Source of the DNA: Alloscardovia criceti DSM 17774
Lineage (GTDB): Bacteria; Actinomycetota; Actinomycetes; Actinomycetales; Bifidobacteriaceae
Assembly (NCBI RefSeq): GCF_000376885.1
Contig: NZ_AQXR01000009.1
Coordinates: 248,001 to 312,000 of the forward strand
Direction of reading: 5' to 3'
Length of the DNA stretch: 64,000 nt
Both the position numbers and the translations under genes were made by a program. The first letter of the stretch is position 1; every line of letters starts with the position of its first letter. This document shows positions 59,439 through 64,000 of this stretch, in pieces. The notes beneath the pieces are model-generated. The model did no database searches and was not told the DNA's origin. It worked only from the letters and a program-made list of their open reading frames with translations.

Positions 59439-59891
59439 ATGCAAATTTCCAGTCGATTTACTATAGCTATACATATTTTTTCCTGCATCGAATACTTCCA
59501 GAGTGCGCATAAGATAACTAGTGAGTTTTTGGCCGATAGTATCCAAGTCAATCCGGTAATCATTCGCAAAATCTTGGCGCAACTGAAGAAAGCAGGGCTG
59601 GTGAATGTAGCGCGCGGTGCAGGTGGTGCTACAAGTGCCAAGCCCGTGGCTGATATTACGCTTTTCGACGTGTATCAGGCCGTGGATAGCGTGGAAAATG
59701 GCGAGCTATTCCATTTTCATGACAACCCCAATCCGCAGTGTCCAGTTGGGCGCAATATTCACAATGCCTTAGATGACAAGCTCGCCCAAGTGCAGGCCGC
59801 CTTTGAAAATGAGATGAAAAGCATCACCATTCAAGATGTCGTACGCGATACCCAGCATTTCATTGCGTTGGAAGGGAATTCAGAGGCATAA
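59439..59891 (+). CDS. Rrf2-family transcriptional regulator (YwnA-like)
   Basis: 150 residues: N-terminal winged helix-turn-helix with SEFLADSIQVNPVIIRKIL (the Rrf2 HTH), wing GLVNVARGAGGATSAKP, then a dimer helix. The cluster of three cysteines found in IscR/NsrR is missing; only the QCPVG cysteine remains, so it does not hold an Fe-S cluster of that kind and is closer to YwnA. The ATG at 59439 is conserved in family position. A palindrome over its own promoter supports autoregulation. Targets are unknown. Confidence 0.9.
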   Translation: MQISSRFTIAIHIFSCIEYFQSAHKITSEFLADSIQVNPVIIRKILAQLKKAGLVNVARGAGGATSAKPVADITLFDVYQAVDSVENGELFHFHDNPNPQCPVGRNIHNALDDKLAQVQAAFENEMKSITIQDVVRDTQHFIALEGNSEA

Positions 59892-60033
59892 TCTTAGATA
59901 CTGACCCACACATAATCATAAAAATCCAACAAAATAAAGAATTTTCCTAAATTAACCATATTGTGGTATGCGATGTCTTAAAACTGGAAAATCTCGATAC
60001 TATAGTGCCAAGAGTTGGGACAAAATCCTGCGA

Positions 60034-60062
60034 TTGACACATTCGCGTTAAGAGAATAAACG
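60034..60062 (+). promoter_or_regulatory. Probable ilvC promoter
   Basis: TTGACA at 60034-60039, 17-bp spacer, TAAACG at 60057-60062. The upstream 140 bp is AT-rich; no T-box or leader-peptide attenuator is visible. Confidence 0.5.
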
Positions 60063-60083
60063 CAGTATTTTAAGGAGCGCCTC

Positions 60084-61139
60084 ATGGCAGCACAAATTTG
60101 GTATGAAAAGGATGCAAACCCTTCCGTTCTCGATGGCAAGAAGGTTGCAATTATTGGTTATGGTTCCCAAGGCCACGCACATGCACTCAACTTGCGTGAC
60201 TCCGGTGTGGACGTAGTTGTAGGTCTTCGCCCAACCTCCAAGTCTGTAGAATTCGCTAAGGAACAGGGTCTGGAAGTTCAGTCCGTAGCGGATGCAACGG
60301 CAGAAGCAGATATCGTGATGATTCTGGCTCCAGATCAGTACCAGCGCACCATTTGGGCCAATGACATCGAGCCAAATTTGAAGCCAGGCGCAGCTATTGC
60401 TTTCGCTCATGGTTTCAACATCCATTATGGCTACATTAAGCCATCTGCAGACCACCCAGTATTTATGGTGGCTCCAAAGGGACCAGGCCATATCGTGCGT
60501 CGTCAGTACACCGAGGGACGCGGCGTTCCAGTAGTTGTAGCAGTGGAGCAGGATCCACAGGGCGATGCTTGGGATATCACCTTGGCATACGCTGCAGGTA
60601 TTGGTGCTCTGCGTGCAGGTGCTATCAAGACCACCTTTAAGGAAGAAACCGAAACCGATCTCTTCGGTGAGCAGAACGTACTGATGGGTGGCGTCAACAA
60701 GCTCGTAGAAATGGGCTTTGAAGTATTGACGGATGCCGGTTATCAGCCAGAAATCGCTTACTTCGAGGTTTGCCATGAGCTTAAGATGCTCGTGGACCTC
60801 ATGAACGAGGGCGGTTTGAACAAGGCTCGCTGGTCTTGCTCCGATACCGCTCAGTATGGTGACTACACCAACACCGTCATCGACGAATCCTGCCGCAAGC
60901 GCATGGAGTACCACCTTGGACGCATTCAGGATGGCTCCTTCGCGAAGGAATTCATCGATGATCAGGATGCGGGCGCTCCAAAGTTCAAGGAACTGCAGGA
61001 AAAGTACTCCAACGTACGCATCGAAACTGTGGGTCCAAAGCTGCGTGCTATGTTCTCCTGGAATAACGAAGGCGTCGCAGATGCTGATGAAGGCCAGTCC
61101 TTCAATGGTAAGATTGCGCGTACTCAGGTACAGGAGTAA
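60084..61139 (+). CDS. ilvC: Ketol-acid reductoisomerase, class I
   Basis: 351 residues, the short (class I) form. It converts acetolactate to dihydroxyisovalerate in valine/leucine/isoleucine synthesis. Rossmann motif [20 protein letters not shown]; cofactor loop [12 protein letters not shown], whose Arg and Ser residues suit NADPH; the knotted C-terminal domain holds Mg ligands in [11 protein letters not shown] and [15 protein letters not shown] 60084 has AAGGAG with 7 bases of spacing. It is monocistronic, ending in a strong terminator. Confidence 0.97.
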
Positions 61140-61170
61140 TTGCTAACCCAATCTTAACATTTCGCTCGCT

Positions 61171-61203
61171 AAGGAGAGATCTTAATCAAGATCTCTCCTT
61201 TTG
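61171..61203 (+). terminator. Intrinsic terminator of ilvC
   Basis: Perfect 13-bp stem AAGGAGAGATCTT / AAGATCTCTCCTT with a 4-base loop, followed by TTGC. Confidence 0.85.
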
Positions 61204-61240
61204 CATTAGAATTGTTAAAGAATTGAATGACAATATTTCT

Positions 61241-62845
61241 ATGAGTTGGATTCCTGTGCCTGCAAATAATAAAAGAATAGTAGATTTAAGTGCAAGTGAC
61301 GCACGTGAGCAATTACTAGACCCTCGAGCGTATTGCACGATTCCACTGCCTGAATATATAAATTCTAAGCCAATCTTAGACGTGGCGAATGCTTTCGTGT
61401 TTTTTTGTTGGGATGGCAAAAGCATAAAAGAATTGAAGCAAACGGATGCCAGTTGGAAGAATCTGATGAATGCAACTGACTATGTTAATTATAAATTATT
61501 AACCAATAAAGATGGGTTATTGAGTTGGCGCCCTATTGAGCTTATGGAGCCAATCTGCTATGTACAGCTAGTAAGAACAATCACAACTCCAGAAAATTGG
61601 GAAATAATTGTAAATCGTTTTAAAGAGGTTGAGTCTTGCAACGTGATAGAGTGTTGCTCTCTCCCATCGGTAAGAAGTGATGACGAACATCTCAGTAAAA
61701 CATCAATTCTAAACTGGTGGAGTGGCTTTGAACAGAGGTCGGTTGAGCTGTCTTTGGAATACCAATTTATGATCACAACCGATATAGCGGATTGTTATGG
61801 ATCAATCTATACGCATGCAATCTCTTGGGCACTACATGGAAAACAATTAGCAAAAAAGAAAAGAAATGCTGATGCTTTATTAGGGAACAAAATTGAAACA
61901 ATTCTCAGAGCTCCACGTGCTAACCAGACTAATGGAATTCCTCAAGGCAGTATGCTCTCTGACTTGATTGCAGAAATGGTTTTAGGTTATGTAGACATTG
62001 AACTTCAGAAAAGGTTGGATGTAATCTTTAGTTCTAATGACGGAGAGACAAACAGAAGCAATAAACCAAAGTTTAAAATTCTTCGTTATCGTGATGACTA
62101 CCGGATTTTTTCTGATGACCATGCAGTAGCGCAAACGGTCCTACTAGAACTTATGCAGGTCTGTGCTGAAAACAATTTTAAATTGAATTCAGGTAAAACA
62201 AACCAATCAGAGGATATAATTATCAGTTCGATTAAGCCAGATAAAATAGCTTGGCTATCAATTGGATGTTATCCAAAAAATTTGCATAAACAGCTGTTAT
62301 TAATAGCTGACTTTTCAAGACGTTTCCCCAATTCGGGCACCCTACTGAAAGAAATATCACGTTTTGCCGATCGGCTTGAGCATCTTAAAGGGAGACCTGA
62401 GCAAAATCAAGTACTGATTGCGCAGGTTGTAGATCTTATGGTACGTAATCCACGGTGCTACCCTTCGGGGTGTCGTGCACTGAGTATTCTTTTGAAGTAT
62501 GAGTCGGAGGAATCCCAAGCACGTCTTTTCGAATTAATTCTTAAGCGTTCTCAATCAGTACCGAATAGGGGGCTGTTCGAGATATGGTTACAAAGGATTG
62601 CAGTGAGGCTAGAATGTTTCGTCTCACACAAATGGGAAGAACGAATTTGCGAGTGTCTGCCTCAAACCTCAATAGGTGACACTCAAAGACAAAACCCATT
62701 CAATTTTGACTGGGTTGATAAGGAGTCTTGTGCTTTGATCCAAAATGTGCCAATTGTGGATCAAAGCAAGTTGGAAGTGATAACGCCAGAAATTTCTGCC
62801 GATGAGGCGAATGAGCCTTTTACTTACACAGGCTTTTTATGGTAG
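61241..62845 (+). CDS. Stand-alone reverse transcriptase, probable defence-associated (UG/DRT-like)
   Basis: 534 residues from ATG 61241 (a TTG at 61223 is possible; neither has a clear ribosome site). Reverse-transcriptase motifs are in order: TTDIADCYGSIY (D181, D184; motif A region), NGIPQGSMLSDLIAEM (about 231-246; motif B) and LRYRDDYRIF (YRDD at 283-286; motif C). The RT core is followed by a 200-residue helical C-terminus. There is no maturase, endonuclease or intron sequence, so it is not a group II intron protein, and no msr-msd retron RNA is evident in the short upstream gap. The gene is much richer in A+T than its neighbours and sits between ilvC and a GNAT gene, so it was probably acquired. 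Membership of the unknown-group/defence RTs is inferred; I cannot name the DRT class. Confidence 0.85.
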   Translation: MSWIPVPANNKRIVDLSASDAREQLLDPRAYCTIPLPEYINSKPILDVANAFVFFCWDGKSIKELKQTDASWKNLMNATDYVNYKLLTNKDGLLSWRPIELMEPICYVQLVRTITTPENWEIIVNRFKEVESCNVIECCSLPSVRSDDEHLSKTSILNWWSGFEQRSVELSLEYQFMITTDIADCYGSIYTHAISWALHGKQLAKKKRNADALLGNKIETILRAPRANQTNGIPQGSMLSDLIAEMVLGYVDIELQKRLDVIFSSNDGETNRSNKPKFKILRYRDDYRIFSDDHAVAQTVLLELMQVCAENNFKLNSGKTNQSEDIIISSIKPDKIAWLSIGCYPKNLHKQLLLIADFSRRFPNSGTLLKEISRFADRLEHLKGRPEQNQVLIAQVVDLMVRNPRCYPSGCRALSILLKYESEESQARLFELILKRSQSVPNRGLFEIWLQRIAVRLECFVSHKWEERICECLPQTSIGDTQRQNPFNFDWVDKESCALIQNVPIVDQSKLEVITPEISADEANEPFTYTGFLW

Positions 62846-62897
62846 TAATTATAGGGGCTATTGAATTTTCAGAATTAACAAGTGCCCATAAATCGAA

Positions 62898-62934
62898 AAA
62901 GGGCGCAACTCTGAACTGTGCCTTTTATAATTAG
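62898..62934. terminator. Hairpin between the convergent RT and unknown genes
   Basis: AAAGGGCGCA pairs imperfectly with TGTGCCTTTT; T-runs are possible on both strands, so it could terminate both genes. Confidence 0.45.
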
Positions 62935-62945
62935 AGAAGAATAAT

Positions 62946-63434
62946 TTAACCGATGTCAATAATCTTCTTCTCGATAATTTCCCTGATACTTTTTATTTCA
63001 TCGGGGCACAAGGGTAATTCTAAATTCGTAATTGTCTTACGAACAAACTCTGGATCAAAGATGTTTTCAACATTATATCTCGACATTACTGACTGCAGAT
63101 ATGAGTCACTGTCTCCTGAAAGAACGTCATGGTTCTCATCCCTAAATACATCAATGCTAACTCGATCAAAAAGAGCATGAATGTTTTTGGTTTTTGAATC
63201 TTGCTCAATGGTTTGGAGGTTGATAACTGCTGTAAAGTTATTTTTTCTAACAACAATCCACTTCCAAATCCCTAAATTATACGGCGATATATTCCTCCTA
63301 GATGTATACCTTGGAGACCCTTGACGCCCAGATACTTTGAAATCATGTTTTCTTAAATCTTCGATAATTTTTGAACGCTCAATATTTCGTGCATCATTAT
63401 ATTTTTTCCTTAATTCTTCAAATGAGGATTCCAT
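62946..63434 (-). CDS. Unrecognised 162-residue protein next to the reverse transcriptase
   Basis: 162 residues, AT-rich like the RT gene and convergent with it. The N-terminus is helical and charged (SSFEELRKKYNDARNIERSK). A basic stretch with aromatic residues follows (RQGSPRYTSRRNISPYNLGI), then strands (WKWIVVRKNNFTAVINLQTI) and a helical C-terminus. There is no signal peptide or membrane segment, and I recognise no family. The paired low GC and location suggest it arrived with the RT, but a functional link is not shown. Confidence 0.7.
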   Translation of the reverse strand: MESSFEELRKKYNDARNIERSKIIEDLRKHDFKVSGRQGSPRYTSRRNISPYNLGIWKWIVVRKNNFTAVINLQTIEQDSKTKNIHALFDRVSIDVFRDENHDVLSGDSDSYLQSVMSRYNVENIFDPEFVRKTITNLELPLCPDEIKSIREIIEKKIIDIG

Positions 63435-63465
63435 ATTAAATAATAATAATTACTATTCTTGATTT

Positions 63466-63954
63466 CTAAAGAATGCTCTCCATAATCGTTTCCTGAGGCT
63501 TCATTCCAAGGCTTTCATAAAAAGCCCGTGCGCCTGCGTTGAGTTCCCACACGCCTAGGGTGATGTTGTAATATCCCTTTTCGCGTGCCCAATCGCGCAC
63601 AAATTCGAGTAAGGTCCTGCCCACGCCTAAACCGCGTGCCTTTTCATCGACACAGACATCGTCGATGTACAAGGATGTGATATCCGTAAACAGCGGATTA
63701 TCCCGGTAATCGCGCCTTTCGCAGAAGCAGTGTCCATACACCTGAGACGGCTCATATGCAGACACGGCCACGAAAATCGGATTTTCCGAAGCGGTATCCG
63801 TCAATCTTTTCTCCAACTCCGCCGCAGAATACTTTGTGCCCAGCTCAAATAAGTCCGGACGTCCGTCATGATGGACGCGGTTTACCTGTTTCAGTAGCTC
63901 CATAAGCGTTGGAATATCCTCGATTTGTGCTGGTCGAATGGAGATTTTCTTCAT
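63466..63954 (-). CDS. GNAT-family N-acetyltransferase
   Basis: 162 residues. The acetyl-CoA binding signature is ARGLGVGRTLLEFV (Q/RxxGxG/A) near residue 108, preceded by the strand LYIDDVCVDE and followed by NITLGVWELNAGARAFYESL and GM, the usual GNAT end. The substrate is unknown. No Shine-Dalgarno is visible; TAAACT lies 6 bases before the ATG at 63954, so the mRNA may be leaderless. GC returns to the chromosomal level here, marking the right edge of the AT-rich insertion. Confidence 0.92.
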   Translation of the reverse strand: MKKISIRPAQIEDIPTLMELLKQVNRVHHDGRPDLFELGTKYSAAELEKRLTDTASENPIFVAVSAYEPSQVYGHCFCERRDYRDNPLFTDITSLYIDDVCVDEKARGLGVGRTLLEFVRDWAREKGYYNITLGVWELNAGARAFYESLGMKPQETIMESIL

Positions 63955-64000
63955 ATGTACAGTTTAGGGCGAAGAATGTATATTCCACTGTTATAAAATG

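Follow-up and report, generated by a model that had tools for sequence, protein, structure and literature searches.

The closest described relative of the reverse transcriptase (RT) considered here is Abi-P2, the product of orf570 of the P2-like prophage P2-EC30 (PDB entry 7r08). According to the available excerpts of PMC9508834, the Abi-P2 gene product gives resistance to T5, its DNA synthesis requires Tyr61 but not Tyr46, and the Y61F variant makes no DNA; the same excerpts describe AbiK as a protein-primed, untemplated polymerase and state that the helical domains of AbiK and Abi-P2 are not homologous in sequence. In the relevant passage of a preprint (PMC13174585), the class 1 UG RTs, which have a helical repeat domain, synthesize DNA without a template where studied; that passage names AbiK and not AbiP2, and the AbiP2 fold fits class 1. 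The RT of Alloscardovia criceti DSM 17774, encoded in the window (the whole 64,000-nt stretch of DNA that was analysed), looks intact and is an ordinary representative of the AbiP2 (Abi-P2) family, new only as a further member. It is very probably a chromosomal, single-gene AbiP2 abortive-infection polymerase that was brought horizontally between ilvC and a GNAT acetyltransferase gene and that probably works like Abi-P2.

The RT gene and a gene for a 162-residue protein that faces it form a two-gene insertion between ilvC and the GNAT gene (Table 1). This 2.26-kb island has a GC content of 0.375, as compared with 0.510 for the window, and is the stretch of lowest GC for its length in the window when scanned in 200-base steps. 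GC is 0.394 in the RT gene and 0.348 in the small gene but 0.518 in ilvC and 0.498 in the GNAT gene, and the corresponding GC3 values are 0.348, 0.327, 0.538, and 0.556, in agreement with an earlier note on this DNA that had described an AT-rich two-gene island poorer in GC than its flanks. In all four other genomes of the genus that were compared, ilvC is followed by the convergent GNAT gene, with gaps of about 60, 210, 310, and 570 bp, and neither the RT nor the 162-residue gene was found in any of them (E ≤ 0.001). Because the island is low in GC and absent from these four genomes, the RT is considered to have been gained by horizontal transfer. The open reading frames listed for the island include nothing beyond the two genes, with no integrase or transposase seen, and the repeats in 60900–64000 include no plausible pair of attachment sites. 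The RT frame is taken to start at TTG 61223; an alternative in-frame ATG at 61241 would give a protein of 534 residues. The coordinates and motifs given earlier for the island were correct, with residue numbers that assume the ATG and shift by six when the TTG is used, as it is here.

TABLE 1. Features of the island and its flanks (positions in the window)
Feature	Position	Strand	Basis or remark
ilvC, left flank, native	60084..61139	+	DNA 86–88% identical in 4/4 other same-genus genomes
Terminator-like intrinsic hairpin behind ilvC, left insertion edge	61171..61200	+	Perfect 13-nt arms
AbiP2-family reverse transcriptase-like DNA polymerase, 540 aa	61223..62845	+	Open reading frame, PADLOC, PDB 7r08, model
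Tyr45 codon, equivalent of Abi-P2 priming Tyr61, motif PxY	61355..61357	+	Alignment with 7r08; Y in 117/118
Catalytic Asp187 codon	61781..61783	+	D in 118/118 aligned
YRDD catalytic motif, residues 289–292	62087..62098	+	D291, D292 in 118/118
C-terminal helical domain in place of RT thumb, boundary approximate	62255..62842	+	Predicted model helices, within 471-residue Abi-P2 fit
100-nt intergenic stretch between convergent genes	62846..62945	.	Fold z −2.4 (+), −2.0 (−)
162-residue gene, convergent with RT	62946..63434	−	Open reading frame; two remote relatives, both on plasmids
GNAT acetyltransferase gene, right flank, native	63466..63954	−	Protein 56–66% identical, adjoining ilvC, 4/4 other same-genus genomes

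The AbiP2 profile of PADLOC matches residues 15–530 of the RT with 555 bits (E 3.2e-167), whereas the next families (Drt6, 155.5 bits; UG14; Drt4, 137 bits) match only part of the protein with about 136–156 bits. The nearest solved structure by sequence is Abi-P2 (7r08, E 8.6e-80; second best E 1.6e-13). Only RVT_1 was recognized by Pfam, and the scores with the NCBIfam profiles Drt4 (122 bits, cut-off 450) and Drt3b (112 bits, cut-off 350), with the group II profile (46 bits, cut-off 300), and with the retron St85 profile (19 bits, cut-off 235), which is the only retron profile among the matches listed, are all below the respective cut-offs. A structure predicted with AlphaFold2 from 67 aligned sequences (pLDDT 88, pTM 0.90) superimposes on 7r08_A with a Z score of 37.5 and an rmsd of 2.4 over 471 residues (TM 0.80/0.87), as compared with Z scores of 17.6–24.2 for DRT6 (the next best, 24.2), DRT4, a UG15 structure, and AbiK, and of less than 15 for retron and group II RTs (TM 0.26–0.46 among the matches listed). 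The stand-alone RT that the earlier note had tentatively assigned to the Abi/UG/DRT defence type can therefore be named AbiP2 from the PADLOC score, the match to 7r08, and the fit of the model, and the profile scores and structure fits also place it outside the group II intron and retron RTs. No maturase, intron, or retron part was recognized by Pfam, Rfam, or the group II and retron profiles, as had been stated. In the predicted model the RT has no thumb and has instead a C-terminal helical domain as in 7r08, which accounts for the long helical C terminus noted previously.

Abi-P2 and the RT have in common a match over the full length of the sequence, the fold, the catalytic Asp residues, and the priming tyrosine, and both are stand-alone genes gained by transfer. 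They differ in that they are only about 33% identical, in that Abi-P2 belongs to a P2-like prophage and the RT to a bacterial chromosome, and in that the RT has a small convergent neighbor and, in the alignment, a longer loop before YRDD (about residues 270–282). AbiK (7r06) also has an RT core followed by a helical domain but is more distant from the RT (PADLOC 98 bits as compared with 555 for AbiP2; Z 19.8). DRT6 (9wy8), DRT4 (9vdo and 9vdv), and the UG15 structure 9l9s have a broad fold in common with the RT (Z 21 to 24), although DRT6 and DRT4 are set apart from it by the profile scores given above.

The RT holds both NGIPQGS and YRDD. In an alignment of 118 proteins, comprising the window RT and 117 homologues (L005, L124, and L125 of the 120 fetched RT loci were left out because they scored under 150 bits or had fewer than 400 residues), the positions of D187, D291, and D292 are occupied by Asp without exception; some homologues had been found via the motif YRDDY, so that the conservation of YRDD is partly built in. 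The column of D190, by contrast, contains Asp in 83 proteins, Asn in 33, and Gly in 2, and D190 is therefore not an essential catalytic residue. Of the intact catalytic motifs claimed earlier, D181 (D187 in the present numbering), NGIPQGS, and YRDD are upheld, but D184 (D190) has to be removed from the list. When the RT is aligned with 7r08, Tyr61 of Abi-P2 corresponds to Tyr45 and Tyr46 of Abi-P2 to a glutamine; by this alignment Tyr45 is the equivalent of the priming Tyr61, which Abi-P2 carries in the loop that connects its helices 2 and 3. Tyr45 is conserved in 117 of the 118 proteins, the sole exception (L012) starting downstream of this point, and because the search patterns did not include Tyr45, its conservation was not built in. 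L012 (5899–7374), from an Enterococcus faecium plasmid with a predicted vanZ-A, is an RT copy that begins after the priming tyrosine and adjoins an IS30 transposase gene; it therefore looks naturally disabled. In many further E. faecium records the match begins at this same position.

By analogy with Abi-P2, the RT would form trimers, perhaps hexamers, would join the first nucleotide to its own Tyr45, and would extend the tyrosine-bound nucleotide without a template. Upon phage infection, the polymerase activity would stop the infected cell.

An RNA-templated enzyme resembling the class 2 DRTs, with a hidden non-coding RNA, would be a different kind of system. Such RNAs accompany DRT2, DRT3, and DRT9 in the available excerpts of the literature, and the earlier note had likewise considered an associated non-coding RNA. 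Rfam gave no match in 59800–64000 at E ≤ 1, and the gaps in the island are small (about 18 nt from the hairpin to the TTG, 100 nt, and 31 nt). In the folds of the island a single strong structure stands out, that of 61140–61240 (z −6.0), which contains the hairpin behind ilvC. Hairpins of other sequence are present behind ilvC in the four same-genus relatives, as judged by eye; because each relative has a hairpin of its own sequence at this place, the hairpin at 61171–61200 is read as the ilvC terminator and not as an RNA associated with the RT. The intergenic hairpin between the convergent genes, which does not appear in the terminator scan, may end both transcripts. Folding and Rfam thus gave nothing beyond terminator-like hairpins in the island, although an RNA within the coding region is conceivable. 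With these results and the AbiP2 fold with its helical domain, an RNA-templated enzyme is extremely improbable, and the associated RNA is not borne out.

The sequence upstream of the RT says little in favor of expression. The start codon, whether TTG or ATG, lies directly behind the terminator-like hairpin with no evident ribosome site, and promoter-like sites occur about as often as expected by chance (8 found, 7.7 expected), so that expression of the RT is putative. The gene might then be a dead relic, inserted but silent, as the lack of a convincing promoter or ribosome site and the possibly non-ATG start would suggest. However, 540 codons have stayed open and all catalytic and priming residues are kept, and we consider a relic very unlikely as compared with an intact AbiP2 polymerase.

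Relatives of the RT were found in chromosomes, plasmids, and phages. In the host family, 4 of 189 genomes match it at 1e-5, including its own genome and one weak match. The genome contigs contain 464 confirmed AbiP2-type RT stretches, of which the best 80 were used, so that this set leans towards relatives of the window RT. There are also matches in 30 viral contigs, in 202 plasmid records at E ≤ 1e-5 (80% or more of the query is covered in 112 of them, and many of the rest match the RT core only), and in 9 phage records (6 cover at least 80% of the query), and P2-like prophages are among the relatives. In one of the phages, the P2-like Escherichia phage pro147 (L014, 1553–5542), an effector of the retron Ec48 type and its polymerase lie near the AbiP2 RT, a neighborhood that is recorded in the available part of PMC8934634. 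The nearest proteins in a FastTree tree of the 118 sequences are L003, from the same family, and L079, from Actinomyces oris, which form one clade with the RT (support 0.986) and are about 38–41% identical to it in local alignments; full-length homologues of the RT are about 41% identical at best.

The 162-residue protein gave only weak matches with Pfam, NCBIfam, PADLOC, and PHROGs (best E 0.014), its profile matched none of the solved structures, and a model of the protein folded alone was not usable (mean pLDDT 48). It had been said to match nothing known; no library names it, but two remote relatives exist, each of which stands alone. (i) WP_144239925.1 (E 3e-6; 31% identical in the alignment; L006, 5995–6534) is encoded on the phage-like plasmid phiCATYP2070I of Corynebacterium atypicum, where its gene is reversed between the terminase and portal genes. 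(ii) WP_109991488.1 (26% identical; L136, 7463–7924) is encoded on p14B4, a Lactococcus lactis plasmid with transfer genes, between genes for an Fst toxin and a Y-family polymerase; it is the less sure of the two because it was reached only through the first relative (E 8e-4). All three proteins have 26 residues in common, including a W-x-W pair and ALFDR, and possibly constitute a small unnamed family of mobile-element accessory genes. Because the Corynebacterium gene opposes phage structural genes, its position suggests an accessory ("moron") gene, perhaps for the exclusion of other phages. Two further candidates were rejected: G321 (E 0.009), a 78-residue open frame with an internal stop, and G183 (E 0.003), which matched over 45 positions within a long frame. 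WP_144239925.1 and WP_109991488.1 were the total obtained from 5 genomes of the genus, 189 of the family, 396 spread evenly over the phylum, 401 of another family of the class, and from viral contigs, genome contigs, phages, and plasmids; because the genome contigs were scanned with two short patterns and the search of the 401 genomes had no positive control, the small gene may be less rare than this suggests.

The earlier note had suggested that the small gene may be a partner of the RT. The two genes could indeed constitute a single defence system in which the small protein would be trigger, regulator, or effector, since both are low in GC, occupy the same site, and are missing from all four of the other same-genus genomes, and the island contains nothing else. 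Recurrence of the small gene beside RT homologues, which the note had proposed to check, was not observed: no relative of it is encoded at any of the 120 fetched RT loci, of which 58 extend by 5 kb or more on each side and 31 by under 1.5 kb on one side, and among which are P2-like prophage copies that resemble each other closely and two loci matched in the core only (L005 and L125). Conversely, an RT of this family is absent from phiCATYP2070I and p14B4, as searched over the whole plasmids with tblastn (one chance hit, E 0.33). The genes are convergent and do not form an operon. The T5 resistance given by the Abi-P2 gene product also counts against a required partner, as does AbiK, which is a single gene in the excerpts of PMC9508834. 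A two-gene system is accordingly improbable. The sole link between the RT and the small gene is the one insertion site that they share, and the small gene is most likely an independent passenger: a mobile-element accessory gene that arrived together with the RT or at the same site.

Many of the relatives of the RT, in contrast to the window RT itself, are located among restriction genes. Type I restriction genes are present at 34 of the 80 genome loci (L016–L095, the best 80 of the 464 confirmed), and at 18 of the 36 of these that extend by 5 kb or more on each side. Within the same 80, the RT lies between hsdM/hsdS and hsdR in 19 loci, for example L088 (2839–10671, order hsdM-hsdS-RT-hsdR), and is directly behind hsdS in 21, where the distance from the hsdS stop to the RT start ranges from −25 to +123 nt; in 11 cases the RT frame overlaps this stop by 4 nt. 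The RT start was taken as the first start codon of the frame, and the gaps and overlaps are therefore approximate. To label the type I genes, profiles were built up from a single locus, L088 of Nitrosomonas sp. HPC101; Pfam agrees with the labels of all three genes there, of the L079 genes hsdS and hsdR, and of L024 hsdR. The hosts are varied, including Bacteroidota, Pseudomonadota, Planctomycetota, Chloroflexota, Spirochaetota, Actinomyces, and an archaeon, and type I genes were found at none of the 30 viral-contig RT loci. The RT of L079 lies behind hsdR, and that of L003 follows a gene whose product has the Pfam domain RE_endonuc, which corresponds to the nuclease portion of type III restriction enzymes. 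In the genome that contains the window, hsdS and hsdR are found in the lower-GC start of another contig (C10; L140, 1–4249), unlinked to the contig of the RT.

The available excerpts of the literature, including those of PMC4244168 and PMC8934634, do not report AbiP2 from type I operons; because a 2022 survey of UG/Abi RTs may well report it, no priority is claimed. PMC8934634, in the part available, describes an AbiK in a restriction-modification neighborhood and some AbiP2 RTs in CRISPR-Cas loci. Since the homologues are at most about 41% identical to the RT and many AbiP2-type RTs are located among restriction genes, the RT may have another role in the cell than the P2 prophage enzyme.

The RT could thus be a last-resort partner of restriction-modification, acting in trans with the type I system of its own genome, such that a phage that blocks restriction releases the polymerase. 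This logic would resemble that of PrrC with its type I system. It is consistent with the 34 of 80 loci with type I genes and the 19 of 80 with the RT between hsdM/hsdS and hsdR (both from the best 80 of 464), with the restriction genes that precede the RT in its two nearest relatives in the tree, and with the presence of hsdS and hsdR on another contig of the same genome. However, the window RT has no restriction genes next to it, the viral-contig loci have no type I genes, and co-location, counted here without a background rate, does not show dependence. To our knowledge, a need for a type I system has not been reported for the Abi-P2 of P2 prophages. A restriction partner is doubtful for the window RT, and the preferred reading is that of a single-gene AbiP2 polymerase. 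A broader and more speculative proposal, to which we give a slim chance, is that AbiP2-type polymerases are built-in last-resort effectors that an intact type I complex restrains and that are freed when a phage blocks this complex; the copy in the window would then act in trans with its own type I system or would have swapped its sensor for the 162-residue protein.

The locus described here adds one member to AbiP2, a family for which PMC9508834 counts the trigger among the questions still to be answered. The type I neighborhood of its relatives (34 of the best 80 of 464 loci, with 11 overlaps of the hsdS stop) provides a testable lead on that trigger: because of these associations, restriction may hold or release the polymerase.
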